From: Heterotrichella gracilis
Lineage: Eukaryota; Sar; Xanthophyceae; Tribonematales; Xanthonemataceae
Assembly (NCBI GenBank): GCA_032358255.1
Contig: JAULBX010027605.1
Span: forward strand, 124,001-188,000
Length of the DNA stretch: 64,000 nucleotides
Direction of reading: 5' to 3'
The position numbers and the translations under genes were made by a program. A model generated the notes under the pieces. That model was not told the DNA's origin. It worked only from the letters and a program-made list of their open reading frames with translations, and searched no databases. Positions 16,087 to 64,000 of this stretch are shown here, piece by piece; the stretch's first letter is position 1, and every line of letters begins with the position of its first letter.

Positions 16087-16170
16087 GTGGGTGGGGGGGG
16101 AGGGGGAGCAATGACGGGATGTCAGCGCAGGTACTCGGGTGGGTGGGGGGGATGGGAAGGGGTTGTGTGC

Positions 16171-16740
16171 AAATCACAAAAACAGCGAGGGTCTCCAGCA
16201 GGTCACCCCTTGAACACTGATTTGCATTTCAGCCCTGGATTGCGGTGCGGTAATATTCTTCAAAAGAGGCCGATATTACTGGAGGCCAGTCCAGGGATAA
16301 AACGCAAATCACAAAAACAGCGAGGGCCCCCAGCAGGTCACCCCTTGAACCCTGATTTGCATTTCAGCCCTGGATTGCGGTGCGGTAATATTCTTCAAAA
16401 GTGGCTGATATTACTGGAGGCCAGTCCAGGGCTAAAACGCAAATCACAAAAACAGCGAGGGTCTCTAGCAGGTCACCCCTTGAACACTGATTTGCATTTC
16501 AGCCCTGGATTGCAGTGCGGTAATATTCTTCAAAAGTGGCCGATGTTACTGGAGGCCAGTCCAGGGCTGGAACGCAAATCACAAAAACAGCGAGGGCCCC
16601 CAGCAGGTCACCCCTTGAACCCTGATTTGCATTTTAGCCCTGGATTGCGGTGCGGTAATATTCTTCAAAAGTGGCCGATAGTACTGGAGGCCAGTCCAGG
16701 GCTAGAATGCAAATCACAAAATTAGCGAGGGTCCCCAGCA
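16171..16740 (+). repeat. 135-bp minisatellite, just over four copies
   Basis: The unit start AAATCACAAAAACAGCGAGG occurs at 16171, 16306, 16441 and 16576, with a partial fifth at 16711: an exact 135-bp period. Each unit contains GGTAATATT and GATATTACTGG, which can pair as a short stem. Because 135 is a multiple of three, one + frame stays open through the array as a 45-residue repeat. Diverged relatives of the unit continue at about 16770-16850 and 16940-17020. Confidence 0.97.
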
Positions 16741-16863
16741 GGTCACCCGTTGAACACGCCTTAACGCACTCGCCCTCAAATGACTCTTGGTAATATTGGC
16801 CTGTTTTCAAGATATCTACCGTACGCATTCCTGGGCTAGAATGCCAATTGATACCGCGGGGTT

Positions 16864-28091: not shown

Positions 28092-31000
28092 CTAAATCTT
28101 TGGTTTCCACACAAGCTCCGCCGGCGGCTTGCGCTGCGAGCGCATTGCCAAAATTGTGTTTGCAGAAGAGTCCACCTGCCACACGCTGGCGGCCCAGGTC
28201 TCGGGGTGGTGCGCCTTGTAGGCAGGGCTCAGGATGACGGGACCCTGCAGGAAAGGAGGGTTTTTACTAATTTTCCCTGAAGGTTTTGAATCCCTAAACC
28301 CTAAACCCAAACCCGAGGCGCTGATATACCCCAGCGGGGCACTGAAAATTACGGACCAAACACACACCCAAACCATAACCTAAACCCTGAACCTGACCCC
28401 AGGCAGCGCACCTGCAGGGTGTGCAGCAGCGGCGGCTTCCGGCGCCAAAATAGCCCAGTCAACGACACCAAGAACCCTAACCAAAACCCTAGCATGAACC
28501 CAAGTGGATGCACCTGCAGGGACTGCAGCAGTGAACACACATCAACACTAACCAAACCCAAGGGGTGTATAGAAAGAGATCGCTTTCTTTATAGCCCTTG
28601 CCTAAACCCATAAACCTAATCCCAAAAGGGCGCACCTGCAGGGTCTGCAGCAGCGGCGGCTCCCGGCGCCAGATTGCCGAATCAAACACCCCGCTAGGAG
28701 TGGTGAGGTCAGCGCGCATGCAGAGCACGTCATCCTTGGAGGGCGGCCCATTACCCCCCACCACCACCGAGCCCATGGCGTGGTACCCGGTGGGTGGCAC
28801 GGGGATCCACAGCGTGGCTGCGGGGATTTCGTTTGTGCGCCAAATGAGCGTGAATTCTACTGGGGGCTTGAACATGGGCGGACTGCCGTCCTGTGGGGGG
28901 TGGTGTACGGGGCGGGGTGGGTGCATGCAGTGGGCAGGGGGAGGGGTGGGTGAATGCAGTGCGGGTATGGGGCAGGGGATGGGTGGGGTGATCGCAAGAA
29001 CAACAGGGAGGAGAAGAGGCGAAAGTACAGACGAGAAAATATACTAAATTATTTGTTAACACTTCCCTTAAACCCTTAAACAAAAGTATTTAAAATTGCC
29101 TTGGCATCCACACATTTTTAAGATGTAATTCTGCTTGTCAAACCATACACTAGGCTCTTCGCCTCACCTCCCGTGCCTCCTCCCAGCACACACTCTAGGG
29201 TTGGTGGCCCCACTACTTAAAACCCTAAACCTTCTATGCAAAACCCTGCCCTAGGGTCTTCCCCTCACCTCCCCCGCCTCCTCCGAATCATCCCAGCACA
29301 CATTTTGAGGTTGGCCCCTTACCCTAAACCCTCTATCCCAAACCCTATTGAAATCTTCCCCTCACATCCTGCGCCTCCGAGGCGTCCAAGTACACATTTT
29401 TAGGTTGGCCTCTAACCCTAAACCCTCCTTCCCAAACCCTACACAGGGACTTTGCCTCACCTCCCGCACCTCCTCCGAGTCATCCCAGTACACAGGCACA
29501 GGCGCCTGAGGCCCCTCGTAGCCCAGCACCACCACATCCCCCACCGCCTTATACCCCTTGGGTCCCACAGGGCGCCAGAAGCTGACCGGGTGCTGCCCAG
29601 GAGCCCCCGTGGCGTACCACAGGCTCTCGTAGAGGCCGGAGGGGGTGGTGGGTGGGGGGCGCGGGTGGGGGGCGGCACGGCCCTGCCAGCTGGATGGTCG
29701 GCGCGCTCTTGCGCGCGCCATGGGCTCGATGTAGTACTTGTTGCGCACCTGCACAGGGGGGTGAATGGTGAAACCGTTAGGGAACGCGGGGGATGGGGGT
29801 AACCACTACAACCTTATGGGGACCCGTAAAAATCCTTGCCCTTGCGCGTGCCAGGGGCTCGACGTAGTACTTGTTGCACAGGGGGGAGAAACCCCTAGGA
29901 GACCCATGGAAACCCTAAGCAGGGGAGCTCACGCCCAGATTCTCACCAGGCTTTTTTGTACTACTTGTTGCGCAGCTGCAGAGGGGGGGGAGGGGCATCC
30001 CATACAGAGGGCGCAAACCCTCACTATACGCAAACTCGCACTGGGGGCGAACACCCTCAGAAATCCCACGAAAACCCTAAACATGGGGCCGCAAACCCTC
30101 AACACACCCTCCTAAAACCTGCCAAACCCCCCTCTCCCCCCACACCACCACCACAAAACCCCTTCCCCGTCCCCCATCCCCCCACGCACCGCCATGGCGA
30201 TCCGCTTCATGTCCTCCGCCTGCGCCCACCCAGTGTGGCATTGCACCAGGTGGCCCAGCGGCTCCTCCTCACCCACACCCACAGCACCCCTCCGGTGCAC
30301 CACCAGCGCGCTGGGTGGGTCTACATGCGGGTCGAGCCACTTTGGCTCGAGTACCAGCAGGTCCTCCCAGTGGACCAGCCAGCGCAGCTCGCGGGCAGGG
30401 GGGACGTCGGCGATGGGCACGCCTGGGGAGGGGAGTTGGGTGTGTGGGTTCAAGGTGGTACAGAAAACAGTGGGTTTGTACATATAGTGCCAAGTTCCAA
30501 TTAAGGTTTCATGGTACGTCCAGTGCTGCAAGGGCCAGGGTATTTTCTATGTTGTACAGAGCAAGCTCGCAAAATCTAAACAAATTACATATCCCCCTCC
30601 AAGTCCCACTCCCCCTCTCACCCCTCCCTGCCCCCCCACCTTGCTCCGCCTGCCGCTGCATGGCCTCAAAGCCAGGCGCCAGCACCATGACCAGGCCCCT
30701 GTTGCATATTATAACCACCTTGTCCTCGGGCAGCAGCATGTGATCCTCATATGCGTACTCCGTCTCCTGGCGCCCAGTGAGCTTGTCGATCACGCTGGGT
30801 GCCATGGGCGAGGAGAGGAGGGAGGTGTGGAGCAGGGCCTGGCCAAGCTCCTGGATGCGCACCTGCAAGGGGTGTGGAGGAGTTAGGAGGGGAGGGATGG
30901 GTGGTGCTGGTGTAAAGAAGTGGGGGGAGGGCAGGGTGGAATATGTGGATTCAGTTGCCTATCAACCAGTCCGCATGGTCGTGTAAAGGTTTTGGGGCCA

Positions 31001-34000
31001 TGGGTGAGGAAAGGAGGGAGGTGTGGAGGAGGGCCTGGCCCAGCTCCTGGATGCGCACCTGCAAGGGGTGGGGGGTGGGGGGTGGGGCAAAAACGGGAAG
31101 GAATTTTCAGGCAATTTTACAGTGTGCAGCGGGGCCTGGCCCACCTTCTGGATGCGAACCTGCAAGGGGGGGAAGTGGAGGGTGGGGCAAAAACGGGGAG
31201 GGAAGGTGTGAGAAAGGCCTGGCCCAGCTCTTGGATGCGCGCTCAAAAGGCGACAAAGATGGGGGTGGTGGTGATGGTGCAAGGGGGAGAAATGCAGCGA
31301 GTAGGAGAGCATGGATGCACATTGCATGGGGCATGGAGGTGTGTGTAGGGGAGTAAAGAGGGGGGAGGGGATGGGGAGAAGAGCAGTAAGGGTGCAGGAG
31401 GGGGTAGCTGCCCAGTATGCCGAAGGCTGTTTTGTAAGCCCACCCAGCCCAGCTCGTGCCTGCAGAGTGACACTAAACATGACCACCACCACAACCCCCC
31501 CAGCTGCACCACCCACCTCCGCATCCCCCGCCAGTGGGGTCAGCTTCCTGTCCCCCTCAATCACACGCGGCAGGCGCTGGCGTGTGCGCACCGCCCCCGG
31601 CTTTGTTCGACTGACGCTCACCCCCTCTAGGGTTGTGCTCACCATGTCCAGCATGCCGCTGATGGGGTGCGCGCCAAACCCTACAACACCCTTGCCGATA
31701 CCCTCCACGAAACCTGCAGGTGGCGGGAGAAGGGGCGGGAGGTGGGGCGAGCCAGTTGAAAAGATACAACTATGGGAAAGAACGAGATTTTCTACAACAT
31801 TTCTACAAACATTTTTTCACATACTGCGCATGTGACGGTGCGCGCGTGTGGCACAGCATAGCCATTGGGTTGGCTGCTGGGGCACTCATGACGATGCAAT
31901 TCTAGTTGCTATGAAGTGCGCGCCGGCTATTGGAGTCCGTTCAAGTCCCCAGATGCGCTCAGACTGTGCCAAACAACCAGGTGGTGTATGCCATGGCAGC
32001 ATGTGCTCCGTGGCGATGGTTTGTTTATGGTTGCCCGCCTCTGTCACCACAGCGGCTTCACACTTCCTCGCCTAGACCCTAAACCCTAATGTGGGGTTCC
32101 ATAATGCAGTGCATGCTGAGCCTCCCACCCACCCCATACCCCCCACCCACCCCACCCTCACCTAGCGCCCCCTTCTGCTTGGCCCCCTCCCAGGGCCTGA
32201 GCACCACCCCCGTCACCCCCTGCAGCACCCCCTTGCCCAGGGCCCCCGCCCCCTCCATCAGCCCCTCCTTCACGTCGCCGATCTGGCGCCGAGCAATCTC
32301 CTGCTTGCGCGCCTCGCTGTACCTGGGGGGGCAGGGGTTGAGATTAGGATTAAGGGCTAAGTTGACTTGCTGCAGCTAGGGTTTAGGTTTAGGGTTGATG
32401 TGGGCGGCGCGCAATGTCCTGCTTGCGAGCCTGGCTGTACGTGTGGGGGTAGGGTAACAGTAGGGTTTTAGAAAATGCTGGGGAGCAGGGGGGCACGGAG
32501 CATAGCATATAATGCAATGCAATACGTTTGCACCGACTCCTTCTGTTGTATTCTAATGGTCGATCAATCATATGTACATCTCACAGGGTTTTCTATATTA
32601 TCTGCAGGCGTTCCAGCAGTGCAGTCAGCTGACAAGCCATCCTTGCACTGCACACACGCAGGATTCCTTTTGGGTCATAAGCTTTATTTTCTTGAATTGT
32701 ACGGATAATCCCAGCCTGTGTGGCCAGGTCCTCTCCCATCGATCCCATCCCCTCCCCTCCCCGCCCCACCCCACCCCCCCTTCACGCACCCCTTGTCGCT
32801 CGCAATGGCCGCCAGGCCCGCCGACGCCAGGCCAAACAGCTTGGAGGACCCCCCGAAAATGCCGAAATTGCGCACCAGCCCAAAGGCGGCCCCCAGGAGC
32901 TGCCCCTGCACCTCGCGCCCCACCGCACGCACAAACACGCTGCGCATCATGGTCTGGCCAACCATCTCAAAGCCCCGCAGCCGCACGGGCGCCGCCTCGA
33001 AGCTGGCCACGTCCAGTCCCATGGAGAGTACCCCGCCTGCAAGGGTTTAGGGTTTAGGCAGGGAGACATGACAGCTGGACAGAGAGATAACATTTTATGC
33101 ATTCGTTAACAGAAAACCCCACATAGTCTAAAGAATGCCAGCTGTAATTCATGCAATAAGGTTTCAGAATGCATGGAGAATAGGTGGGTAGGCGGGGTGC
33201 GATACATCCAGGCCCATTGACGGCCCGCCTGCCAAGGGTTTATGGACTAGGTAGACGCCCATGCAGGGTTTGTGCATGTACTGGGTTTTCACGTACGATA
33301 GGCTTTTCATGCCTCCCCAAAATTTTCATCATTATAGAGAGTTTCACGCTTGTAAACAGTGTTGTAGTTTACTCCCTGTCTCCCCCTCCGCACCTGCCCA
33401 TCGTGGCCTGGACATTGGATCGGACTGGAATGACACCGATGCAAGCAGCTCAGAAACTGAAAGCAAGCCAACCTGCACCAGGGGGGGGATTTTATGAACA
33501 GCACATGGGGATGGCCCAAAAGTTGGTGCAGCTGGTACATCCCCCCAGTGGCCTATGGCAAGAAGTTGCTGTGGCGGACACCCATCATTCTGGGATTCTG
33601 TGATGCAACTGGGCATCGCTGGTACAGGCCTTGCAGTCATTATGGCTGGCAAGGCAGTAATATATTATGAGTTGCAATTTGAAAAGTGTGTTCCACTGAA
33701 CACCCTCTGATCATACAGCAGCATGGTTTCCCCCCAACCCCCCACCCACCTGTAGCGGCATGTCCACCGCCGCCTGCGCATGGCTCTCTCCCCCTGACCC
33801 ATGGCTCAGCCTGCCAAGGTCCAGGCGCTGCACCACATCCATCAGCCGCCAGATCACGCTCTCGCTCAACGCAATCTGCGCAAGGAGGATCTAGGGTTTA
33901 GGGTTTTGCGATGGGGACAGGTACAGCGGGTGTGATGGGTGGATGAGATGCTGGAAACAGGTGGGTGTGAGAGTAAAGGCATGGCAAGCCAATTGACACA

Positions 34001-37000
34001 GGTGTGCCATGCAAAAAGCCATTTGTTTACTTATACCATCCGTCCGGTTCACCCCAATGCGTGCGGTCCATGCGAAACCTACCAACTAATTACTTAAGAG
34101 GTACCCATGGGCCGCACCTGCAGCACCCCGTTTGTCTTTGCCGCCACAAAGGGCACGTACAGCCTGCTGCGCGCACCCCCTGGCTGCTGCCTGAGGCTGA
34201 GTGTGACCATGGGGAGCTCGTCACCGTCAAGGCCACGGGGGAGGTCAAGGGGAGCGACGATCACGGGGTACCTGCGGGGAGGGCAAAGTACAGGGTCGAA
34301 GGAGAGATCACTTTCATGAGTTGCCTGTGCCCCTTGTCAGGGTGCGGCGGGCTGTTCATTACTATTCTGTGATGATCCTTGTGTGAGGGAACCATGGGCA
34401 GTTCCCCAGATATCCGCCCCCTCACCTTCTGCCCCACAGCCTGTCATCCAGTAGCATCTCATCACCGCCAGGCACACGCACGGGGCTGAGCGCACCTATC
34501 CTTGCAAACCCCCAGAGAAACCCTAGCACCAACCCTAGGGTTTGCCGCCCCTCACCTTGTGCCCCACAGCATGTCATGCAGCTGGTACATAACAGGTGGC
34601 GGTGCGCTCCGGCCCCCAGAAAAAAACCCTACCAACATCCCTAGGGTTTCTTTCCCCTCACCTCATGCCCCACAGCATGTCGTCCAGCTGGTACCTCCTC
34701 GCCGCCAGGCGCACGCAGGTGGCAATGCGCTTGGGCCCCAGTAAAACCTATAAACCCCTACCAAAAATCCTAGGGTTTGCCGCCCCTCACCTCGTTCCCC
34801 ACAGCATGTTGTCCAGCTGGTACCGCTTCACTGCCAGGCGCACGCAGGTGGCTGAGCGCAAATGTCCTAGGAAGACCACCAGTAAAACCCTACCAACAAC
34901 CCTAGGGTATCTTTCCCCTCACCTTGTGCCCCACAGCATGCCCCCCAGCTGGTACCTCTTTACAACATGACCAGCAAAACCCTATACTAGGGTTTGTTCC
35001 CCCTCACCTCGTGCCCCACAGCATGTTGTCCAGCTGGTACCGCTTCACCGCCAGGCGCACACACCTTTCCTCAAAAACCCTACCCACAAACCCTAGAGTT
35101 ATTTCCCCTCACCTTGTGCCCCACAGCATGTCATCCAGCTGGTACCGCTTCACCGCCAGGCGCACACACGTGGCGGTGCGCTCCGGCCCCACCCCCGCAG
35201 CCACACTCAGCTGCGCACCCGACACAGTCAGCAGCAGCACCTCCTGGGGCAGCGCATCCACTATGGACAGCTCAAAGCCTGCCAGGTGGAGGTCCAGGCT
35301 GGTGGCTCCCTGGCCCGGGGCGAGCTTGATGACGCCGCTCATGGCGGAGGCGCCTGCGATGGGGGGTGGGGGGGTGGGGGGTACTGAGGGGATGATGGCA
35401 AGGGTGGGGAGGTAGTAGGGGATATGATGATGGCGTCAGTGGAAGCTAGGGGTTGTCTAGGGTTTGCTGGGGTTAGAATTCAAGCGAATGACGGCCAAGC
35501 GAAGGACGGCTAATGTGTAGGATTTTTACAGGCAACAAAACAATTAAGTTCATATCAATTGTTGGGGTTGGAATACATGGTGTTCAAGAGTTATGTTCTT
35601 AGGGTTAAAAGTGCGTGCCTCACCTGGCAGTACCCTGACTATCCTGTCTACTCCTCCCCTGCCCAGCAGCGCCGCCCCTGCCCCCGGCACCCCACCCACA
35701 CCGGTGGGGGTCATCACCTGCTGCTCGGCATCGGCAACCTGCAAATTATGACAATCAGTTGAAATTCACAACAAAAGCAATATCTATAAAATTCCTTTCA
35801 TCTACACATTATGATGATTCCTAGTGTTAAGCATTCTAACCCAATGCATATGACTTGGATTTGGCAGTGGGAGGGGCATGGCATATGTGGGAGACAGCAA
35901 CAGTTGCCAAGGCAGCAGAAATACATCCAGATGCAGCAACAACGTGGGAATGCCGCTTTTCACGCAGAACACAAAACAACGACGACCGCCCACCATGCGA
36001 ACGTTAGGGTTTAGGATTAGGGTTTTGTGCGCGCACCTGCACCGTGCACACTTTAGGCCCCACCGACATTGCCAGCTTGTGTTGGCTGCCCACCCCTCCC
36101 CCGCCACCCCCGCCACTCATGGAGGTGCCCAAATAGGTGTGCGCCTGGGGGTCCAGGAAATACTGCACCGCCGGCGATCCCCCCATCCCCTCCTGCAGCT
36201 CCAGCTGATACGGCCCCACTGGGACTGTGTAGTGCCACAAAAAGGGGACAGCGGAGAAGGGCTCGATGGTGAGGCGGGGGGCGCTTGGAATATGGGCCTG
36301 CCGGTATTTGAGCGGGTAGGGGGTCCTGCGCGCACAGGGAGAGTTGGAAAAGGGATAGACGGGGGAAGGAGGGAGGTTTGGGAGGCCATGTGCCATTGCA
36401 GTCCAGGCAGGGCAAGACTGAGCGAGCAGTGCTAAAAACTACTCATATGTTGCCACAGATGCTTGCATCACCACATGTCATCACCAGAAACAGTATATCA
36501 CGATAACTCTGAAGATAAACTGGTGATTTTCTTCTTTGTTTTCCAGTAACAAACCATTCTTGCTGCCAATTTGATCCTGTGGGTCTGACATGCATGACGT
36601 ACCACTGGTGGTGAGCTCTTCAGGGGGTGCATGGCATGCTCAAGCGTCACAAGGGAAAGCAGGGTAAATACGTTGGGTGCTGCCATGTCTAGGGTCTTAC
36701 AAGGGTTTTTGTTAAGGTTTGATGCACCCAGCGATTGTCTGCCTTCATCACCTTATGCTCATGGCAAGAATGGTGCTAGGGCTTCCAGGATTTGCTACAC
36801 AGAGCCTCACATCAGTATCTATTTGTGAAGTGGGTTGCTGCATGCCGGCTGTGCATGTGAGGTGGTTCTTGATAGGATTGATGGTAGGGTTGCCAGGGTT
36901 TGCGTTTAGGGTTTTGCACCTGTTTTCTATGATGTATGGTGGATCACTCCCCACCGCCTCCACTACCAGGTGCATGCAACCAGGGGAGCGCAGGGCTAGG

Positions 37001-40000: not shown

Positions 40001-43000
40001 AGAGAGCATCCAGGCCCCCAGGAAAATATCGCGATTGATGAAAATGTCCAGGGGGCATGAGCCGCCGGGGCGCACCACGGTGAATTTGTCTGGGAGCTGG
40101 GGGGTCTGGTCCACCCCCGCGCGGTGGCTGCGGGGACCAGGCAAGGGAGGGTGTCAATCCCAGGAAATGCAGAGGGAATTACGATTTATCTTTTGAGTTC
40201 TCTAATTTTTTAAGCGCATCTTGATAACACATCACTGATGCGGCTGCACTGTTGAACCCCCCACCCCCCTCATCCCCAGCACCATAGCAGTGTTATTCTT
40301 CCCACTGCCCCCAACTACTGGATGCCGCCGCTTGGGTGCATGCATATGACCACCAAAATTACCTCTCTTTAGCCCCACAGCACAATTATTACCCCCTCCG
40401 CCAACCCCACCCACCCACCTGAGGTATCCGTATGAGATGGGTATGGGCTCATCCTGCGCAAAGGTGTATCCCTCGGGGTAGAACTGCAGGGCGATGGCTG
40501 CGCGCATGTCTGCAGTCAGGACCTGCACGCTACCACCCGCGCACAGCCGACCGCTCTGGCGCAGGAGCAGGCCCCTGGGGGAAAGAAAAACCCTGATTTT
40601 AGGGTTTTGGACCCCAGCGGGATTGTGGCGCTGGGTGGAATAGCGGGTTGCTTTGTGCAGTTGGGTTAAGTGAGTGATGCATGTCAGAAGATGCTGGGTG
40701 GAGAAGCAATCATGTGACCCACACCCCCAAAACCCACTGTGGAAACCAAAACCCTTGATTAGGGTTTTCATAACCTAATTGCTTGCATCAGGGGCCTGGC
40801 TTGCCGCCATGTGGGTGAGGTGGAGGTGAGTGGGTAATGAGCGTGGGGAGGGTTTGCGAAAGGAGCAGCAGCTGTTTAGGGTTTAGGGTTGAGACCACGC
40901 AGATACACAACCCTCCCTGGCGCAACTGGCCCATCTGCCTCTACCCAGTAGTGCGCACGCAGTGGTTTGAGCACGCGTTTTGAGTGCATTACTGGACAAT
41001 GCAGAGGAGCAAGTTGCACCAGGGAGGGTTGTGTACCTGCGTGGTCAATGCAGGCAGTGTTTTGGTCACGCACGTGCGTGCACTCAGAATTCCTGCTCCA
41101 AAACCCTACTTTGTGCCTTCTTCCTCCTCCCGTATCAGGTAGTGTGCGGCTATCAATAGAGCATTCGCACTAAACCCCAAAGCCCTACCTTGTCCCCACG
41201 TCCTTCTCCCAGACGAGGTAGTGCGCAGCCACCGGCAGCGCGTTGCGCAGCACCAGGGGAGGCGCGGCAACTATCCTCCAGTCCTGCAGCGGCCCCCCCT
41301 GGTCCGCCCCCACCCCGTAGGTGTCCACGTCCACAGTCAGCGACAGCCAGGTGGCGCTGCCCGCCAGCTGTGCGCCTGTGGGTGCGCCGCTGCTGATCTC
41401 AACGGGGGCGCCTGTGATTGAAGAATGGGTGTCAAGTGTGTGATCATTTCATCCAGTACCACAAGCTGCAAGTAAGATGGATGCATTTAAATGAAAAGGG
41501 TACATCAGAAGTGGGTCCAGTCGATGGAAGTACAGAAGTGGGTGGGGGATGAAGCACAGCCGATTCACGCTCATTGGTGGCCCACACCTGCCAGCAGTTG
41601 CTAAATCACCCTTGTGGTGAAAGAGAACTAGGGTTTGGTGCAGGGTTTGCCACCGTGTGACCGTCGCACCGCCCTCAACACTAGCTAGGATCCAGCGGCG
41701 CCGCCGCCACCAGCCTGGTAAGGGTTTACGGTTGGTAGTTAGGGTTTTAAGGCATCCACCTGAGCACTTGCTAGGGTCCAGTGGCTGCGACACAACCAGT
41801 CAAATATAGGGTTTAGGGTTCATACTTTAGGGTTTAGGGTTCATACTTTAGGGTTACGGCACCCACCTGAGCACTTGCTAGGGTCCAGCGGGGGCGCCAC
41901 AACCAGTCAAATATAGGGTTTAGGGTTCATACTTTAGAATAAAGGCACCCACCTGAGCACTTGCTAGGGTCCAGCGGGGGTGCCACCACCAGCCGGGTGA
42001 TGGTGGGGGCAAGCCCCTCCAGCTGCATCGTGTGCTTGCCATCTGTCGCACCCACGCTCCACGCGTGGTCCACATCCCCTCCCACATCCCCTCCACCCCC
42101 ATCCCCGCCCCCACCCCACCCGGCCACCGGCCTTAGCTGCAGCTGGCAGCCAGGGGTGTTATACCCGAACGGCAAGGGGAGGGAGCCCTCGGGGGGCACA
42201 ATCCCCAGGCGGGTGCGGGTCCCCGTGATCGTCGTGGAATCCAGGGCGGAAATCCCGGTCCCCGAGGCGGGGGTGGCCCCGGAACCCGCCAGGTGTGCAG
42301 CTGCAGCTGAGTGGCGGCGGGTGCGCACCCACCTCCGCCTGCGCACGAGGCAGAGCCATGAACAACAGGGGCGGGCCAAAAACAGGGAGGATCTGCGGCC
42401 GGGGGGGTAGGTGGGTTTTTGGGGGGGAAGGGGTAGGTGTGCATGCACGATGTATGTGTGTGTGGTGTGGATCAGGAGGTCAAGGGTTGGGAGTGTGTGT
42501 GGTGCTACAGAGTATTACGCGTCAAAAGGAGGGGCGTGCAAGGGAGGGCAAAGGGGGTGGGCACTGGTAGTGCGTGAGAGCGCAAACGAGAGCCCTGTGT
42601 GCCCGCAAAGTTGTGAACACGCCGTGATTGGTCATAGAAAGGCCAAACAATGTGTGTGCTGATCATGTTCCATCAGTTGCTGGACAAAACCATGGTGGAA
42701 TTAGTCAGTAACAGGCAAACATGTGACGCGAAATTTTCTGACAGAGTGCTCAGCCAGCAAGGGTTTGCATTGGGAAACAGACCCTTGCTTAGGGTTTATC
42801 CCCCACCTGCGCACAAAGCTCTTGCGGTTCTTCTGCGCCGAGGGCGGCGGGGGGTACGTGACCATCGTGAAATCCGTGAAATACGCCCACCCCTCCTCGT
42901 CAGTATTAGGCCCCTTCTCCACCTGCCAGGGCCCCTCCCACTCCCAGCCAGCGGGGGCCGGCACCGAGGGAAAGTCGCTGGTGCCCCTCCCCTGGCGGCG

Positions 43001-46000
43001 CGTGCGTCCGCTGTACCTGCGGGGGTCTGTGGGCAGCAGCACGCTCGACCCCCAGCCCTTGACCAGCATGTAGCGCTCGTTCTCGAATACTTCCTCCTCT
43101 TGCACTGTGGCAGGGCCGGGAGCCTGCGTGGCGGGTGGGTACGTGCGTTAATGGGGTAGGAGGGGAGGATTGTTGAATGAAACATGGAAATGCATAGAGC
43201 AGGGGTTGCAGGGCACATGGAAGGTGCGCAAGGGGTAGAAAGGGAAATGGCATGGGCACCGCATGCTAAGGGTAATCAGATAATAATACAAGCTGTTTCT
43301 AGCATGTTACCCTTGCCCACGCCAAGTGACTTGGCAGGAGGTGACGGCCAGTCCTAGTACTGCTCCATTAACAGCCCAGGTATGGACCAAATGCTGCAGC
43401 GTACACCAAACACCCACCCACCCACCCTCCACCCCCACCCACCTGTTCCTCCTCCTGCCCCCCCCTTGCCTCCCTGAGCAGGCACACCTCCAGCCCCAGG
43501 GCGGTGGTGTTGACCAGCTGGCAGGGGGCGCGCAGCACCTCCTGGCGGGAACCAGAGCGGAAGGAGTCCTCAAGGATAAGGCCCTCGCCGCCAATCCTGG
43601 GATGCGAGAGGGGGTACATAAATCAGGCATTAATGGGAATTGTAGTTCATTTTACCGGGGTAGATTGCAACAGGACCTGCTGTAGCCAGATCGTTGAATG
43701 TAGAAACAATTGTCTAGTATATACTGCTGAGTGCTACATACTGCAATCTCAAACACCCTGCTGAGTCATACCTCACTGCGCAGCTAGTTTACCTGGTAGC
43801 TTATACAAGTAAACTGTTTTGCCCTGTTTCTAGAACCAGAGATTAAACCAGATCCAACACGGGCACCCTGAGATGAAAAAGAAAAGGCGCACCTGATGGG
43901 GATGACGGAAGCTGACGTGGCGTCCCCAGCCTCGCCCTCCACCCCAGTGGTGCGCCCCTGGCGCCCCACACGCCGCTGGCTGCCGCTAGCGGGGATGAGG
44001 GTCCAGTGGTCGTCCGCCATGCCATCCAGGATAATTGCCCGCTGGCCCGCGGTGGATGCGCGGGAGCTCCACGCATCTGTTGGCGTTGATCGGTCGCCTT
44101 CCCCCTTGTACTGGCGCTGCATGGCGTACTGCAGCTGGAGGGTGGGCGCCTGCAGGGGGAAGCCAATGGTATAAGCATGCGTCGATGTTGAATTCAGCAG
44201 CACGCTTGTTGGATTTGATGTGTGTTTCTCTGTAGACTGTAAAATTTGTGAGTGCAGACGCATCGCAGGCAGTACAAAGTGATAAAGGTGGTACAATGGC
44301 CAGCTAATCATCCCATGGCAGGCGACTACAAAGCCATAATCGGACGACGCGCCATGCACTGCATCACTCATCAGGTCGCAGGAAAGCAGGCTGATTGCCC
44401 CCCATCCTTCTCCCCACCCCACCTGCGCCCCCTCCTCCTCCCCTTGCAGCGCCATCTCCAGTGTGCCTGTGCCCCCCTCCTGCCACGTCAGCGGCGCCCT
44501 CCCCTTTGCCACCACCTCCCCTGCGCCCCCCTTGGCAGCGCCATTCACCAGCTCAACCTCAAGCTGCAGCCCGGTGACTGCAAGGGGAATGACTTGTTTA
44601 CAGATGCTAGGAAAATACGAGGAAGGAATTGCAATATTTTCTCGAGATATCTATTTGGGCAGGTAATCTTGAACTGTGGCCTGTTCCTACCAGTGTCCTA
44701 TTATTCATGATAGATCAAGGTGAGACAATCCACAGCATTGTGCATATGAATTTCTGCAAATGGATTCAATTCTTGACATGCGGCAAGCTTCAATGAATGC
44801 AAGGGAGCAAACCCAGACCCTCCGGGTCTAAAACCACCCATTAGGCAATAGCAAGCCATGAAAACATACAGGGGTCGTCCAGGGAACCCAAACCCTTAGG
44901 GTCATCGACCAGCCAAGTGCAGGGTGTCGTGCGTACCTGGTGCGCCACGCTCCAGTTCGAGTATGAGCCTCTCCTGCCATGCTGCCCCGCCATTAGCCGG
45001 GGTCACGCAGCGTGTGTGCACCCCCCAGGAGCCTGCACAGGAGCAAAGAAAGTTCAAAACAAGGGGATGCTATCACAAGTCGTGATTCACAATCAATCAT
45101 CCTGGGATGCTTTACAACACCGCACACACATATCACAAGCTGAAAACCCTGCCATGCACACTCCAATTGGTACCAAATAAACCCTGTAGGGTTTAGGATG
45201 TCGAATCCCACCTGCCACTACCTCCTCTCCCTGCAGTAGCCTTGCCACACACTGAAGTGCAGCTCCCTCCCCTGCCGCGGCGGCCCCCACCAGCCCCCTT
45301 GCTTCCTGGACATCCACCAGGATCAAATCCGAGGGGAGCGCCTCCTCAGAAATGTGCACATTTTGGGAGGCCCGCACGGGGGCCACCTGCAGGGGTTGTA
45401 ATACTCGGACCTCCTGGTCGGGAGGGAGGGCCTCGGTGCACCTGCAAGGGGGGAAGGGTACGGTTTAGGGTCTAGGGTAATCGGTTAGGGTTTGTTTAGG
45501 GTATTAGAGGAGATGCAAGGACAAAATGTGGGTGGGGCAGGTAGTTGCTATCAGTGGATTGTTGCCCGGCGCCCCTTGTCGCAACCTCAGATTGGGATCC
45601 TACACAGCGCACAATGACCTCCAATGCATTTCCATCAACCCCACCCGGTGCAGCACTCCACTGCCATCCCAGGACTGGCCACCCACCACCTGCCACCCCA
45701 CTCCTCTCTGCAGAATTCACACCACCACCCATTTTCCAACACCATCACGCCTTGTCTGGCCTCCAACGACCACCCCACCCCACCAGACACCGCCCGGCCC
45801 CCACCAGGCACCCCACCCCCATGCAATCTCCACCTGAAGTCCCCAAAGTCCATCTCCAGCTGCTACGCACCACATCCCAGCCTGATGGTCACCACTGGAC
45901 CCGCACCAACACTAACACCCGACCCCACCATCACCACCAACCCATGACTAACCACCACCAGCCACACCCCGCTCCAGCTAAGCATCCACCACCACCATCA

Positions 46001-49000
46001 CCAGCACCCTTGCAACCCCCACCTGTGGTCCCCAAAGTCCATCTCCAGCTGTGCGCCGCAGCCCAGCCTGTTGGTGACCACGCAGTGCACGCTGCGCGCA
46101 TCGGCGGCGGCCAGCAGCTGGCGGTAGTCGCTGCGCTTGGCCTGCAATGGTGGAGAGGGTTTAAAAGGTTGTGGCGCAGGTCGCTGCGAGGCGACTGTCA
46201 GGTAAAGAGGCACATGCATTCACGCAAGGCTGATTGTGGAATGGATGTAGTGCTGCTATAGCTGCTATGGGCAAAAAATGTGCACTGTGCGGAGGTTGTT
46301 GGTATGTGCTTCCACTGTGCTGGCAGCACTCCCTGCCAGTGGAGCCGGTGCCACCTCAGCAGTAGCGACAAAAACATGGCGCATCACTGCATGTGCCCAT
46401 CGACAGTGGCATGTGCGCAACACCAGGCAGCCCCACACGGCCTCCTCGCAAAACCCTCTACCGCCACTTGCAGCCGCATCCACTCTGCGCATGAGCTGAC
46501 CACGCTGTTTGAAGGTCACACTTTAGGGTTATGTATCAAACCCTAAACCACTGCCCTCCACCCCCTCCACACACCCACATCCACACCTTTTGCAGCTGCA
46601 TCCACTCCGCCCTCGAGGTGATCAGGCTGTCCAGTGTTGCGTATGCCAGCGTGGTGCGCACAGTCTCACTAGTGGACTTGACACTGATACTCATACCGGG
46701 CTCAACACCGGAGGTGGGCTGCGCAAGGGGGAGGGAGGGATGTAATACAGTCAGCAGGTACTACAGGTACTACAGCAAGGGACGGATGACACAGCCAGAC
46801 CATTGATGTGTGCCCCAAGTGGTACCAGGCAAGGCCTTGTCCTGGATTTAGGGTTTACGGTGTAAGGCAATTCCCTAAATGGCCCCCAGAGTGTGCACCA
46901 GGCAAAGCCTCGCCCCCTCTGGAGTCACGGTAGCGCATCACACACTGATACACACCTACAGGCTCACCATCGCATCGAGTGCTGTGCAAGAGTGACTGCT
47001 GATCTGGCTGCACTGCACATACTTAAATGCATGTCATTAGCTGCCTATCCCCGGGGCTCACCGTGGCGTTTGAGTTCATGTCGCATTTGATGATCGCATC
47101 CCAGGGTTCCAGCACCGGCTCCCACGCCCCACATGCCCCGTTGTACGCCCACACCGCCACATGGAGGCCAAAGTGCGCCTGCATGACCCCTGGAGCAGAC
47201 CCCCTCAGGGCCGCCCTCACCGCCCCCACCTCAAGTTCGGCCAGTGGGGTGCGCAGGGTGTTGCGCAGGCTGAGGGTGGTGGTGCCGGAGGTGAGGATGA
47301 TGTTGGTGACGGGTGGGGGCTGCGGTGGGGGTGGGGGATGTAAAGGAGTGAGGGGAGGGAAGGGGAAAGGCAGTGATGGGGTTTCAGGATAAGAGGTGTT
47401 GAGTGTGGATGCTATTGGTGATGGGGAGGGTGCTGCGGTAGCAGCAGAGGGGGGTGGGGACATTGGTGGATGAGGCAACACAATGGGATACAGATGCAGA
47501 ATTTTCACACACAACCTTGCAGCATAGTATAGCCCGAGATAAACAAAACCCCTAAATAAGGGTTGCGCAAGGGTATCCCCCTCACCTGGCCTGAGGTTGA
47601 CTCCCTCCTCCCCTCCTCAGCACCATCCAGCAGCGCCACCCGCCACAGCCCCCCCGGTGGGGCCCGCACCCCACCCGCACCCCCCACCGGCACACAGGTT
47701 TGCAGCCGGTCATCAGCACCCCACACCACCAGGCCATGGCGGGCCTTGGAGGGGGGGAGGGCCCACAGGGGGCGGGGGGGTGGCGGCGCGGGGGCGGTGG
47801 CGTCGGACCGCAGGCAGCGCACGATACCCTTGTTAGGGCGTGCGCCTGCCAGGGTTGCTATCATACCCATAGCCACATATCTGCGGGGCAAGGGGGTTAT
47901 GTTATTCAAGTCATTGCACACGGGGATGTGATCCTTTGAGTGAGTAAAAAGGCTACACCATGTGGTTGAGGATGTGGGGATGCGGAGTTTGTGCGAGGGA
48001 TTGTTGTGACAGATCTATGAGAATAGTCACTGGGTATGGTAGGGTTTTTGCAGGGTTTCCTGGCGTACCCTGGTGGTGGAATGGGCATCCAGATGGTGAG
48101 TGCACGCTCACGGGTGGCGCTGATGTCCATCCAAATCTGCAAGAAATGAGAAAGATGTTTGACATGTGGGTCAAAATTTGGGACACAAGAATGTTGCATA
48201 TTCACGCCCACAGCCACCCACCAACAGCGCCCAAGGACGCGTATTAACACACACACCAGTAAATGCGACCCCGTAAATGCATCCACCACCACCCACACAA
48301 ACTGCCTGAAGCTTGATGAACCCACTGCCAATACCACCACCACCACCACCACCACCACCACCACCACCACCACCACCACCACCACCACCGCTGCATCCAC
48401 CCACCTGTGCAAACTCCACCGGCTGCTCCACCAGCGGCTTGTCACCCCCCACCCCTGCACCCCCCTCTGCATCAAGCACCACCAGGGCGCTGGCAGGGGG
48501 CTCAACCCCGGGGACCAGGCAGTCACCTGCACAGGGATAGAAAATTGAACATCCCAACAGTAAAGAAGAAAGCAAGGAGTGGGAAATGCGGGAAGGTGGC
48601 GAGTGGGATGTTGTCAAGCAGTACGTGGCAACGAGATAGATATAAAACAATATATAACATAAAACAATATATAATATACAACATTGAACCCAAGTAGACG
48701 CGATCCTGCTAAAGAGGGCGACTGCAGTTTGTACTGGAAGTGCAATGTCATTGGCATGAGACATATGCGCGGTACCCATGATGAATCCTTACTGAGCAGC
48801 CGCTAGCCATCAGCAACCATAGCTAAAACCTCCCCTCCAGACAATGACCACCTCAGCTACCCCCCCTTGCAGCCCTAGCACCCACTCCTCCCCAGCACCT
48901 ACCCATGGAGGCATATCCATCAGGGGGCACCAACCGCCACACGCTGACCCCTGCGCCTGACATAGCCCCCTTGTCGACCCACAGGCGCTGGAAATTAACA

Positions 49001-52000: not shown

Positions 52001-55000
52001 TACCTTGAATGTTGCTTGCCGCTGGCCCCCTTTGGTCCACCCATGACTGCCAGGTCCGGCCCAGCAATGCGCTCAACATTGTTTTCGGGGTGGGCAAGCA
52101 GGCGGGCACCTGCGGTGGTGGTGATGGTGGTTGTGGTTGCGGTTGTGTGTATGTTGGTGCGTCCCGCCCATAGGGTGTGCTCAGAATTGTGCACAATTTA
52201 AGTTGCAAAGCATGCTTGAGCTGCAGTGCGTAAGAAGGTTGATTTCTGCAGTTGGGGACTAGCTAGGTATGGGGATTGGGATTTCGTAACATCCTAGATC
52301 GGATATTTTACTGTTGTTTACCTTGGCAGCACCATGGATGGACAGTGAACCCATGAACCTCCCTTGGTACATAAAAAATTAAAACACCAATTTTGGACCC
52401 ACCTGGTCCCAGCTGGATGCACGCAGGCACCACAAAAGGTATTGATATGCGAGTAGGGCTCAAAAGCATTTTACTTGTCATTACCCCTCGCACCATGCAT
52501 GGGCAGGGTGCCGCATGACCAGCCCTACCAATACCCTAACCCACTTCCAACCCTTGAGGCAAAACCCTTTAGGGTAAAGCCCAGTACACAATCTGGGGAC
52601 CCACCTGGTCCCAGCTGGATGCACGCAGGCAGCGCCTGCGCATACACAATCTTGACATTGACTAGGGTCAGGCTCTTTCCCCCCCCTACCACCACCAGCG
52701 GCAGCGCCCCCCCCACGCTGGCGGGGTCGGGGAAGATGATGCGGTTGCCGCAGCCGTTGTAGATGAAGTCCTGCACGCCTGCGAAGTGGAATGTGGGCTG
52801 GGTTTAAGACAGCTGCCGAGACCATCATCATCAGCAGAGTGTGGCTAGGGATGGAATAAGGACACAGGGGTTGTGCAGTGCAAAGTCGGAAATACAGCAA
52901 AATCCAAAGTTTGCACCCAGGTTCACAATTAATTTTAAGATCTGGCAGTATGTTTGCTGCACCACCCAAATGAATGGCACGCGCAGTGCACATGCCGCTT
53001 CGCGGGCCACTCGCATGTGCCACTTCTCTCCTTGACCTTACTTAGGTTTCCTAGGGTTTGCCCTAGGATTTGCTGCACAACCCTACCTGGCTTGTCCGCC
53101 AGCAGCCTGGTACTTGGTGACAGCCACAGGTCATCGCTGGCGTCATGGGGATCAGCTGCAAGGGGAGGAAGGGGATTGAGCAGGGGATAACGGGGTAGGA
53201 AGCTACATGCAGGATGGCACATTTTGGAATGAGTTGAATGAGTAAGCAATGTACTGCCTGTGGCAGGTTTTTTTTTGTTTTCCCTTGTTTGGTCCAAATT
53301 TTTATTCGTCGTTCACCCTGCTGGTAGATCGTTCAACAAGCCAACCATGTAGGACCATTGCTGCCATTGATGCACCATGCAGGCCGACAGTACCACTAGG
53401 GTCTCATTAGCGTTTTTAACAGTGAGAGTGAGTAGGTTTTCCCCCTTACCTCCCAGCCGCACGTCGTGGCTGTCAAAGGGTATCGGATTCGCCGCGGTGA
53501 GGGACAGGCTGGGCACCACAAACTTGAGGCACGCGATGATGAAGGTCATCTCGGCAACAACCGTGGGCTTCTGAAGCCGCACGCTCAGCTCCTGCTTGGC
53601 AAAGCCATAGGCAGAGTACTCCAGCGTGAGCATGGAGGACTTGTGCCCGCTGGAAATGAGGTCCATTTCCGACTCACGGGGGGTGCTGGGGCGGCTGTCC
53701 GCCGCCCTGAAGTAGGGCAGCACCACCGACACGTGCATGGCGTTGGAGAGGGTCTGCTGGTAGCGAACCCACAGGTCGCCCACTGTGAAGAGGGCGAGGG
53801 GGTCTGTCCTGCCAGTGGCTGCGTCAGTGGCCGTCAGCTCAAGTTGGCACCTGCCGATGGCCACATTCACCTGCACGGCAACAACATATTTGTGAGATTT
53901 ATTATTAAATTCATTATGTATATATTAAATTTATTTTAGTTGCTGATGAAATAATGCCTATGACTGCGTCGGTGGCGGTGAGTTCCAGCTGGCACCTGCC
54001 GATGGCCACATTCACCTGCACGGCAACAAAATTTATTATTGTAATTATTTAAATATATTTTTGCTGATGAAAGCTTGACCTGGCACCTGCCGATGGCCAC
54101 ATTCACCTGCCTACCTTGACTATTGCGATTGTTAATTTTTTTTATTTTTCTGCTGATAAACGCTGGCAGCTGTCAAATAAATTGACAAATAATGGTCAAA
54201 TTCGCCTAGGAAAATCCTCAGGTTTGCAAAACCAACGTGATATGATGAAACCCGCCAGGACCAAGGGTTCTGCCTGACACGGGATGTGCAGGCTGACTAC
54301 CGTGCCGCTGTATTGCATACAACCAACCAACCAACCTCATCTAAATCGCATTCAAATCCATTTCATCACCTGGATTACCCATTTACTAATTACTATTTAC
54401 CTGGATGGCGACCTTATCCTGCTTGACCTCCACGGGCGCAAAGGCCTGGGACACAGAGGTGGTGACGTCATCCGCAAGCTGAGCCAGCCGCTTCTCATAA
54501 TGCTCAATGGCTGAGGGGCCCCCCTTTTCCTCCTCTTTTTGCTCCGCGTAATACTCATCCAGCCACACGGCGGCGGCCGGTCGGATCATGGGCTCGGCAA
54601 AATTGGACCCCGCAAATGAGGTGATTTGCTGGTACTCCCGGTCTGAGACGGTGGCCTTGATTGAGGGTACGCTGATGGAGACGTCCATGGAGGGTAGGGT
54701 TTGGGTAGGGTCCAGCAAGGGCCGCTGCCACTCAATGGTCATGCCTGCAGAGGGGCACGAAGGGGGTTTAGGGTTCAGGGTTTAGGGTTGAAGGTTTAGG
54801 GTTCTTGTAGGGCTTTCCTTCACTCGATGGTCATGCCTGGGTGCATTAATTGAGGGGTTTGGGGTTTAGGGTTTGTTTAGGGTTCAGCAAGGGTTTCTGG
54901 TACTCAACGGTCATGCCTGCAGAGGGAACCAAGAAGTCCATGCCATAGTTGCATTGTGCAAGTGCCGCCTGCTGACCCAGGTATGCTTGAACAACAAATT

Positions 55001-58000: not shown

Positions 58001-61000
58001 GGGCGGGCTCGGCTGCGGAGAGGGGGTGCAAGGGGTGAGTGGCAGGACCCGAGGCGGGGTGGCATTTGTGTGTGTAAATGTAAAAAAATCCTGGCGGATG
58101 GCATGCAAATGGCTGCATGGGTTGCGCATGTAAATTGCTGATTAGGTTGCGCATGCAAGTGGCTGACTCGGTTGCGCCCCACCCCCGTGAGCCAGAAAAA
58201 CCATTACATAAAGTGCAGTCAATGAGGTTACACATATACGGACAAATAGATGCATAAAGGAGATTGTTGTCATCTTTCATGAAACAGACGCCACTTGGCT
58301 GGCTCACGCCACACAGGTTGAATGCATGCGAGTCCAACCACCCCCGTGACCCCACATTTGTGCCCCTACCTGCCCCCTTATCCTCTGTGTCAAAATCCGC
58401 CAGCGGCTCATCCCCAGCCAGCGCAAGCATGTGGTGCTGAGTGGACTGAAGCTCGGACAGCCAATCACTGGCCTGCACACCACAAGTGGTGTGTCAAACC
58501 CTACAAACCTTTGCCACAAGGAACTACATTTTTTGAGGCAAATTTGGGTCTATCAGGTTGATGGGGTTTCTGGGTTTGTGCTGGGGATCAACATTGTCAT
58601 TTTTCATTTTTTTCACTTGCATCGCACCCCAGCGTTTTTGTGCATGCGTGGCCTGTGTTGCTGTTACGCCACCCTTCTGGATTCATGACAGCTCCAAACT
58701 GCCACTGCCTCTGATGCCCTACCGCACCTTTCCCATCCTATCATGTCACTCTGCCAAACCAAGCCAATGGCAAGCACCCCAAACCACCACCCCACCCCCT
58801 GCACCCACCACCCACCTTCTCCTCCGTCTTGAACCTCAGCAGCAGCGACGAGGGGTCGCTGGCCGCCGCCCCCACCTCCACACCCTCCGGCACCACCGCA
58901 ACCACATTCTCCACCCCACTGCACTGCTCGGGGGCCAGTGCAAGGATGCGCTTGCCCCTCCACACCTCCTGGCAGGCCAGGGGTTTGTCGGAGGAGCGCT
59001 TTTCGAATGTGTAGAGCGATCCGTTGTGCAGCACCAGCCATCGGCGCTGCCACTGAGCGGAGGCCTTGCCGAGGCCGGACCAGGTGAGGACCCTGCGGGA
59101 GGGTTGTGGGGTGGTGTTAAAGTCAGGGTTTTGTGGCATGGTGTGGGATGAAGGTGGGGGTCAGGAGAGTCAAGATACACTCGACTGAAAGAGGGTTATG
59201 AGGGGGCGGCGCATGGCAGCGGTGTGCGCGGCACCAGCCACCGGCGCTGCCACTGAGCTGAGGTCTTGTCAGGAACTGGCCAGCCCAGACCAGGTGAGGA
59301 CCCTGGGCAAGGGTTATGTGGTGGCAGGCGGGAGGTGGAATGCGGTTTGGTGGGATGAGGTTTGGTGTGGAGGGTACATGTTGCAGGTGGCAACCGTGAG
59401 GTTATCTGCGTGCGCCATCACGCTACAAAGGTGGTGCAAGCTCAAACAAGACCAGGCTCCTCAGGGTTCATATAATATTGGACATTCCATAGGTTTGGCT
59501 TCCACCCACCTCCCATGCCCTGTGCGCTGTGCCTGCTCCACCCACTCCAGCGTCCTCCCCGCCCCATCCTTTGACGCAGGCAGCTCATCAGCCTTAGCAG
59601 GAAAGAGCGCATTCACCGCCCTCAGCATGCGGCCAAGCTTGGCGGGGCTGAAATAAAGTGTGACCGAGGGGATGGTGCCCTGGACCCGCATGGCGGGGTA
59701 GTTGGGCTGGGGGTAGCGCGCCACCTGGAGCGCATTGCAGAAAAATAATGAAAAATCAAGAAAAAGAATTTAAAATTACTAATAGGCAAATAAAGGCAGG
59801 GTAGTCTGGCTGGGGGTAGCGCGCCACTTGGAGCATACTGCAGGAAAACAATCAATATTAATAAATTAAAAATGCTAGCACGAAGATGTATAAGGAAATA
59901 ACGGCGGGGGTTAGCGCGCCACCTGGAGGGGGAGTACGATCAAGAATGAGGGCAGAAAGGACTGATCGCTGCTCTTACAAACTGTAGCCAATGTGCTGAG
60001 ACAGGGCAGCATCCCCGGAGCAGAGGTGTGCAGGGAATGCGGGACCAAACTCAACAGGTTTACATGATGAGACAAGACCCCAAGGGTGAATAGGAGGACA
60101 CACTCAATCGTTAGAAAAGGCATGGAGATAATGTGTTTTTATCACTCACTCACCTGGAGCGAGGTCTGGATTTTGCATTTGTCGAGCAGGGGCACCACCA
60201 ATCCCCGCTGGGATTCCACCGGCTTCTCCTCGGGATCAGGCGCCCCGGTGTCGGTCTCCGGCCATTCAAACTCCCCCTCCACCAGATATGCGCCTATGTC
60301 CTGTGCATTGATGAGCACGCATTCGTAGAGCTGTGCTTGCTCCTTGGGCAGTGTGAGGGGTGTGTGGTTGTCGCTGCGCAGCACAAATCGACCCAGGTCC
60401 AAGACCATGGTGAGGTCGCCTGCAGGGGGGGCGGGGGGGGGGGTTCATGAGAGCAGGAACCCTAGACCCTAGACCCTAGACAGGCATGCACTGAGGTGCA
60501 AGGAGTCGAAGCCAGAACCAACTCATTTGTGCCACAATGGGATATGGTAATGAGGCACATGCGGAACAGTGAGAATCTCACACAGCCTGGGCCGCACTCC
60601 AATAAGAACCACCTTCCAACCTCTTCCCATCCCCCGCCACTCCCCCCCCCCCTCCACCTTCACCCCTCGCCACCGGTAACCCCACTTTTGGCGTCCCCAC
60701 AGCCTGAGTGGTACCATCACTCAAAACTGTGTTATCCTGCAAACCTCCCCCCACCCCCCTCCCCACACATCCCCACCACTCACCCTCCCCCTCGCCCTCC
60801 CCCCTTGGCACCGGCACCGCCACCTTGGGCGCCTCCAGGTCCAGGTGGAGCACCAGCACGGGCCGCTCGTTGAGGGCTGCAGCAAGGCGGGCGGCGGCGG
60901 CGGACTGCGCGCGGCGCACCTGGGCAGCGGCGCTCAGGCGGAGGGCGCCCAGGTCTACCGCCTGTGTTGGGGAGGGAGGGTATGTTAAGTGGTTTGGGGA

Positions 61001-64000: not shown

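Follow-up and report, generated by a model that had tools for sequence, protein, structure and literature searches.

Exon edges and splice sites repeated in the adjoining introns of a VPS13-like gene and of other genes in Heterotrichella gracilis, and their possible origin in break repair

The window considered here, a stretch of 64,000 nucleotides (nt) of contig JAULBX010027605.1 of the xanthophyte Heterotrichella gracilis (assembly GCA_032358255.1, positions 124,001 to 188,000), carries on its minus strand a large gene of the VPS13 family. The translation of its model, which was obtained with a hidden Markov model (HMM) gene finder, forms a single open frame with a terminal stop only, and the 5' end of the gene probably lies beyond the window. 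VPS13-type domains are present in the predicted protein: the matches to the Pfam families Vps62 (57.2 bits, curated cut-off 22.1) and VPS13_VAB (31.7 bits, cut-off 22.6) exceed their cut-offs, and a partial match to VPS13_N reaches 50.6 bits, which is under the curated cut-off of 80. At a number of exon borders of this gene, the splice site and the adjoining end of the exon are repeated within the neighbouring intron. Such repeats, called exon-edge echoes here, are real, both in the VPS13-like gene and beyond it, and those in the window are collected in Table 1.

The source assembly comprises 68.5 Mb in 903 contigs, 276 kb of which were analysed. The window and 25 sampled stretches formed the training set of the gene finder, which was self-trained, and the analysed set consists of 24 sequences with 276,089 bases and 319 predicted introns. 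The stretches L001-L003, which overlap the window, were excluded, as were L008 and L010 (35-38% guanine plus cytosine, GC) from all gene-model work, and L026 (GC 38%) and L022 were retained without any predicted gene. Echoes were sought with probes of 45 bases, which were taken at the exon edge and contained exon letters only, and a match was scored at z>3. The border tests skip introns shorter than 120 nt and introns beside exons shorter than 50 nt. Probes of low 3-mer entropy were removed from the position-profile, intron-tile-location and direct/inverted tests, and also from the intron probes of a test with 2,033 intron tiles. Repeat clusters were built from masked local repeats with an offset of at most 1,500.

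In the whole sample, 38 out of 242 donor edges and 35 out of 242 acceptor edges found a match in the adjacent intron, compared with only 3/141 and 8/147 for probes from the middle of exons and 2/141 and 3/147 for probes from the opposite end of that exon. The VPS13-like gene has 22 echoed borders out of 112, evenly divided between donors and acceptors (11/56 each), and 13/112 by a stricter BLAST method. An earlier description of this DNA, made from its letters alone and referred to below as the sequence-only reading, had counted about twenty boundaries in this gene and had seen donor and acceptor edges alike affected, which was fair on both points, the number of repeat clusters in the gene being 15. 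The echoes are not peculiar to a giant gene, as the other contigs have them too (donors 24/162, acceptors 20/162).

The echo rate falls from the exon edge inward. With 45-mers and a threshold of 16, the rate on the donor side is 32/228 for the last 45 base pairs (bp) of the exon, 7/196 at -90 to -45 and 0/136 at -135 to -90, and the same successive positions on the acceptor side give 23/226, 4/197 and 1/144; intron tiles in this profile have a rate of 3-11%. Donor-edge probes compared with other loci gave 0/922 matches. Counted strictly, as exon edges that recur in an intron, the echoes amount to 54 borders and 78 copies. Chance matching, as a source of the echoes, was rejected or weakened by the null scores of the echo tests.

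The splice signals learned by the HMM are conventional, with AG|GTRRG at donors and pyrimidines-TGCAG|G at acceptors. In the stretch L024, a border can be located from the protein: the gene product is RFC4-like (E 2.3e-100 to solved RFC4), and the exon beginning at acceptor 5000 encodes the stretch DAQNALRRTMEAYSKIT, which is conserved in the protein, so that the border used there is fixed independently of the HMM model. The intron upstream of this acceptor contains two degenerate copies of that edge, each preceded by gcag and separated by CCCTAAA-type runs. An artefact of the gene models was rejected or weakened by this protein check and by the use of four gene-model stringencies. A coiled-coil protein encoded in L013 had no match in Pfam and none among solved structures.

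Table 1. Position of the VPS13-like gene and of the exon-edge echoes in the window
Feature	Positions	Strand	Border	Details
VPS13-like gene	28092..63671	-		59 predicted exons, 4,560 amino acids (HMM model and Pfam)
Donor-edge echoes	28364..28690	-	exon of real donor starts at 28636	2 intronic copies
Donor-edge echoes	29101..29494	-	real donor 29461	3 intronic copies with few common changes
Acceptor-edge echoes	29705..29991	-	acceptor 29749	2 intronic copies, two repeat clusters
Acceptor-edge echoes	30749..31240	-	acceptor 30863	
Acceptor-edge echo	32285..32440	-	acceptor 32323	filler of CCCTAAA type
Donor-edge array	34417..35191	-	real donor 35113	6 intronic copies
Donor-edge array	41666..42004	-	real donor 41953	3 copies, TTTAGGG motifs
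Donor-edge echo	45822..46081	-	donor 46023	
Donor-edge echo	46430..46630	-	donor 46587	
Donor-edge echo	52384..52631	-	donor 52605	block 46 bp at 89%, filler 156 bp
Acceptor-edge echoes	53810..54175	-	acceptor 53871	filler AT-rich, without telomere motif
Acceptor-edge echo	54665..54922	-	acceptor 54745	
Acceptor-edge echo	59025..59324	-	acceptor 59093	
Acceptor-edge echo	59692..59842	-	acceptor 59725	
Acceptor-edge array	2302..3225	+	real acceptor 3113	6 copies with many common changes
Acceptor-edge echo	19370..19547	+	acceptor 19512	

The copies are direct at 32/243 donors and 27/243 acceptors and inverted at none of either, which is what duplication of neighbouring sequence by repair of a staggered break would give. 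They also lie on a fixed side of the exon, as donor edges are echoed in the downstream intron in 31/175 cases versus 1 in the upstream intron, and acceptor edges in the upstream intron in 23/175 cases versus 0 downstream. This arrangement bears on the idea that the echoes are remnants of intron birth, in which an intron is created by duplicated exon sequence with a proto-splice site (AG|GT), a mechanism that is known (PMC2891723; PMC4974935). Such a model needs the end of the upstream exon to recur at the 3' end of the intron, but the copies of donor edges are found 102-908 nt away from the acceptor at that far end and mostly retain a donor of their own, and acceptor edges have no downstream echo, so that descent from intron birth appears very improbable.

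A copy mostly holds 20-80 bp of exon and the splice site. The length of 30-80 bp previously given for the repeated segment stands in substance, with a wider range of the aligned exon part in the whole sample (18-127 bp at donors, 19-212 bp at acceptors), and the repetition itself, put at one to seven copies, is confirmed with a maximum of 6 per border by the method used here. The intron-side end of the block lies at most 20 nt from the splice site in 37/78 copies. At 48/53 borders, the nearest copy is 83-226 nt away, with distances falling loosely at about 100 and about 200 nt. A sharp minimum spacing of about 83 nt, as seen with BLAST, was discarded, given that free alignment yields 9 donor and 4 acceptor matches closer than 80 nt, which leaves at most a depletion.

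The aligned blocks are at least 15 bp apart at 42/54 borders, young pairs of high identity included, and less than 15 bp apart at 12/54; both filled and plain joins, as they may result from repair duplication, are present. Among the young pairs with filler are L018:7834 (94% identity, 28 bp), L013:6558 (93%, 147 bp) and the pair at donor 52605 of the window (89%, 156 bp); in older pairs, part of the separation may be decayed intron homology.

The order block, filler, block also resembles a target-site duplication, and the filler could accordingly be a mobile element (a retroelement or an introner-like one) that inserts at splice borders and leaves behind an exceptionally long target-site duplication. 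Introners are likewise recurrent insertions that alter introns, and a preference for nucleosome linker DNA has been reported for them (PMC9860276). They form element families, however, some with target-site duplications of 3-9 bp in the families described earlier (PMC9860276), whereas the blocks here measure tens of bp or more, and no filler family is visible in the 24-locus sample: in a comparison of the 42 fillers with the sampled loci, with the low-complexity filter on, the matches listed at other loci were of telomere type, and no inserted sequence common across loci, as in a family of introners or other transposable elements, was found among them. The 12 borders with less than 15 bp between the blocks also stand against an element, and insertion of this kind is considered improbable.

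Telomere-type runs are found between the copies in 13/22 donor and 7/20 acceptor fillers, compared with 4/22 and 3/20 beyond the copy, and many TAGGGTTT-type motifs separate the copies in the array of donor 35113. Telomere-type motifs also accumulate at intron ends. Hexamers of TTTAGGG and of its complement occur at 14.8+16.8 per kb (31.6/kb) over the initial 50 nt of introns, at 5.9+3.4 per kb (9.3/kb) from 51 to 100 nt, and at 1.9+17.0 per kb in the last 50 nt, where the CCCTAAA strand stands nearly alone beside the acceptors. Each kind stays under 1 per kb in exons, the rates between genes are 5.6+4.0, and permuted control units within introns have a mean of 2.3 and a maximum of 3.8 per kb. 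The peaks lie at about +10 to +50 on the donor side and about -60 to -10 on the acceptor side, with the top at -30 to -20, and both persist in introns that carry no duplication. Among introns 240 nt or longer, a telomere run is contained in 46/207 donor-side and 30/207 acceptor-side segments of 60 nt, compared with 16/207 central ones. The dominance of the C-rich strand by the acceptor may be what remains under the splicing constraint, which permits no AG there.

A TTTAGGG-type telomere array, recognised from match positions and the length of the contig, appears to lie at L022:3478-3728, at the end of contig C660. TTTAGGG telomeres and long introns are described for Chlamydomonas, in a genomes paper that makes no mention of intronic telomere motifs in the parts drawn on here (PMC8226300).

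The relation of local repeats to gene structure was assessed with 88 clusters, out of which 68 touch a splice border (33 a donor, 27 an acceptor and 8 both). The other 20 comprise 4 purely intronic clusters, 9 that are exonic or exon/intergenic, 4 intergenic ones and 3 that join an exon interior to an intron; the last 3 lie off any border and were counted in neither the border nor the intron-only class. The clusters of the VPS13-like gene touch a border without exception (15/15) at all four gene-model stringencies, at which the border and intron-only clusters of the whole set number 76/4, 70/4, 68/4 and 60/4.

A distribution of this kind might in principle result from random tandem duplication and purifying selection, by which exonic duplications are lost, those that touch introns survive, and copies of exon edges stay recognisable for longer, their exonic counterpart being free of drift. 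The correct side, the direct orientation, the near-absence of exon echoes beyond about 90 bp and an identity that is lower in the intron part (72-76%) than in the exon part (82-83%) are all explained in this way, and the lengths of the exon part are reproduced by random blocks in simulation. However, when random duplications were simulated on introns and borders, with different decay rates for introns and exons and with the same BLAST search and masking, intron-only clusters made up 38-40% (plain tandem) or 58-67% (block plus filler) of the intron-touching clusters, compared with 4/72 observed. Shifting the annotation 200 times gave a mean of 37.3 border clusters (maximum 51) and 20.0 intron-only clusters (minimum 11), so that no shift reached the observed 68 and 4, and the telomere-motif peak at borders of duplication-free introns is left unexplained. 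Random duplication with purifying selection is thus already disfavoured and is judged unlikely.

For an ordinary minisatellite, whose position is independent of gene structure, the observed 68/4 would be expected to resemble the shifted averages of 37/20, which it does not. A concentration of the repeats on exon borders beyond what minisatellites would give, as had been proposed from the letters, is borne out by the simulations, the shifted annotation, the position profiles and the locations of intron tiles, the matches of which fall inside border arrays in 58/71 cases on the donor side and 43/60 on the acceptor side. Two further candidates were rejected or weakened, namely detection bias toward constrained exons, by the simulations, and preservation at intron edges only, by the finding that copies mostly lie more than 80 nt inside introns.

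Differences between copy and exon number 174/1,227, 167/1,212 and 304/1,211 at codon positions 1, 2 and 3 (14%, 14%, 25%), a pattern that arises because the copy drifts and the exon is constrained. The copies decay much like unselected sequence, that is, in a near-neutral way. This decay gives no support to a second proposal of the sequence-only reading, in which selection keeps the copies as spare splice sites that buffer splicing, nor to a wider form of it in which they act as decoys or in regulation. Most aligned copies do retain their dinucleotide (GT 36/42, AG 26/31), which had been described as kept throughout and is usually but not always so, and the divergence of the dinucleotides (13/146 positions, 8.9%) is slightly under the 14% at codon positions 1+2 (341/2,439). 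This difference does not reach significance (Fisher p=0.11), however, 11/73 copies have lost the GT or AG, the exon part of the copies drifts at every codon position, and an in-frame stop is present in at least one copy (an echo of acceptor 29749). Maintenance of the copies as spare sites is therefore given little credence.

Two or more copies are found at 13/54 borders. In these arrays, some copies have few changes in common and others many, with 114 shared changes overall versus 21.8 expected, 71 of them supplied by the array at acceptor 3113. The arrays with few common changes suggest that copies were made separately from the exon; the pattern is suggestive only, as a change in the exon itself can also yield shared changes.

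Taken with these observations, the echoes are, with somewhat better than even confidence, interpreted as scars of DNA break repair for which exon-intron junctions are the favoured place of origin or of survival. A staggered break would open around a junction, with one end in the intron, often about 20 nt or less from the splice site, and the other mostly 20-80 bp into the exon. Both ends would be filled in and rejoined, and filler, partly telomere repeat, would often be captured or synthesised at the join. At a donor, the product would consist of the intact exon edge and splice site, the filler, and then a second exon edge with its splice site and the rest of the intron; at an acceptor, it would be the mirror image. 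Arrays would result when the same border is struck again. Since the outermost copy retains the intact exon, splicing could ignore the rest, so that the product would be tolerated and would then decay neutrally.

Candidate enzymes for such a process are those of overhang fill-in, as by CST/Pol alpha-primase, and of end joining, together with the capture of telomere repeats. The CST/Pol alpha-primase complex, whose normal role is at telomeres, gives rise, in cells of mouse and human, to small tandem duplications by fill-in at staggered breaks (PMC8355091). A repair or replication process by which the boundary is copied anew along with telomere-like filler, which was the other explanation offered by the sequence-only reading, fits the anatomy, the copies being direct and on the correct side, with filler between them that is enriched in telomere motifs.

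Tolerance alone would not account for the shortage of purely intronic events or for the telomere peak at borders; the best reading is that the event itself favours junctions. Candidates for its cause are open chromatin at junctions, nucleosome linkers, transcription and R-loops. The median length of internal exons (158 bp, n=272) is near nucleosome size, and with the linker preference of introners this makes the linker DNA at exon edges one candidate, as a matter of speculation. A bolder form of the break-repair reading is possible, though rather doubtful: junctions would be hot spots of breakage, through transcription, splicing or linkers, where healing would add telomere repeats and copy the edge anew, so that introns would grow outward from their splice sites in a recurrent process not described before.

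Several results weigh against an origin of the echoes in junction-centred break repair. The break and repair events are reconstructed from their presumed products, the junction preference has candidate causes only, and the exon borders are ab initio predictions. Some of the 68 border clusters consist mainly of exon-exon pairs in contact with a border, and part of the fall of border clusters in the shifted control is caused by clusters that land between genes (mean 17.5). Introns repeat themselves internally as well: 22/133 mid-intron probes and, in a second test, 220/2,033 intron tiles match their own intron (both unmasked), so that intron-internal repetition was examined separately, and the remaining 18-28% of the matches of located intron tiles fall outside border arrays. 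The aligned exon part has a median of 49 bases, close to the 51-53 of random blocks in simulation, so that precise block ends find no support; the intron part of the random blocks is 31-34, somewhat longer than the observed 23. Fillers that are not telomere-like make up 9/22 at donors and 13/20 at acceptors, and one-sided addition by telomerase was rejected or weakened, as the ordering of telomere motifs in fillers that it predicts is not seen. Some arrays, such as that at acceptor 3113, appear to have grown internally. Finally, genes are uneven, several having no echoes (0/26, 0/22 and 0/22 borders; dispersion p=0.028).

Related repair duplications are known, and splice-border echoes or border targeting of this kind were not found among the open-access matches listed, a scope that largely leaves out subscription journals. 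Human repair-mediated duplications are similar in that break repair places copies of nearby sequence, up to some hundred bp long, in introns, and the copied sequence may take in exons and splice sites (PMC2671141). They differ in that border clusters dominate here and inverted edge copies are absent; in the parts of the human study that are relevant here, 4/824 donors are partial exon/intron and 278 intron, with tandem cases filtered out, and one inverted exon copy is described (PMC2671141). The duplications of CST/Pol alpha-primase are likewise direct, tens of bp long and made by telomere-related machinery and end joining, but they follow designed nickase breaks in mammalian cells and have no link to splice borders, and the parts of that paper drawn on here do not describe filler with telomere repeats (PMC8355091). 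In Drosophila, tandem duplication of exon sequence and splice signals also alters intron structure, in intron gain and sliding; there a new intron position arises, whereas here an existing intron keeps its position and the copy of the border is stacked inside it (PMC2891723).

Telomere repeats can be inserted interstitially when breaks are repaired. The telomere repeats in the echoes would likewise serve as repair filler and differ in being concentrated within about 50 nt of splice sites. In plants, paired nicks and patch-mediated repair reportedly lead to tandem duplications.

The echoes touch on two old questions, namely how introns lengthen and why mutation at intron edges differs. In each scar, an exon edge that is under constraint is present as a copy of known orientation, which gives direct access to the mutation spectrum of splice junctions, and the build-up of echoes would slowly lengthen introns. 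A mutational border bias would point to DNA damage localised at junctions in eukaryotic genes, and a selective one would inform on how duplicate splice sites are tolerated. Natural experiments are also offered by the arrays, in which several similar donors or acceptors stand in a row and the cell must use one.

The sampled stretches are not uniform in other respects. Seven with predicted genes (L007, L009, L012, L015, L017, L020 and L028) contain no strictly echoed border, with one border cluster in L012, and each has telomere runs in no more than one intron; loci such as L013 and L018 are full of echoes and runs. L007, L012 and L020 deviate in tetranucleotide usage. L008, L010 and L026 (contigs C100, C180 and C1), with 35-38% GC, are unlike the remaining sample and probably come from other organisms in the assembly.

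Within the window, the 15-bp "exon" that the gene model places at 31145-31159 is probably one echo of acceptor 30863. Scans of the window with Rfam at gathering thresholds and for transfer RNAs found none. Plus-strand genes, which the sequence-only reading had also regarded as affected, are indeed echoed at two acceptors (3113 and 19512); the names TraB and glutamate 5-kinase used in that reading are unconfirmed, with no Pfam match in the 3 proteins scanned out of 5 predicted (one of them over 177 of its 265 amino acids only). At the end of a predicted plus-strand gene lies a tandem array of 135 bp units (16169-16757, 4.4 copies, 93% matches), which looks unlike the border echoes, and an array of the hexamer GGGTGC with 14.8 copies occupies positions 12-100.

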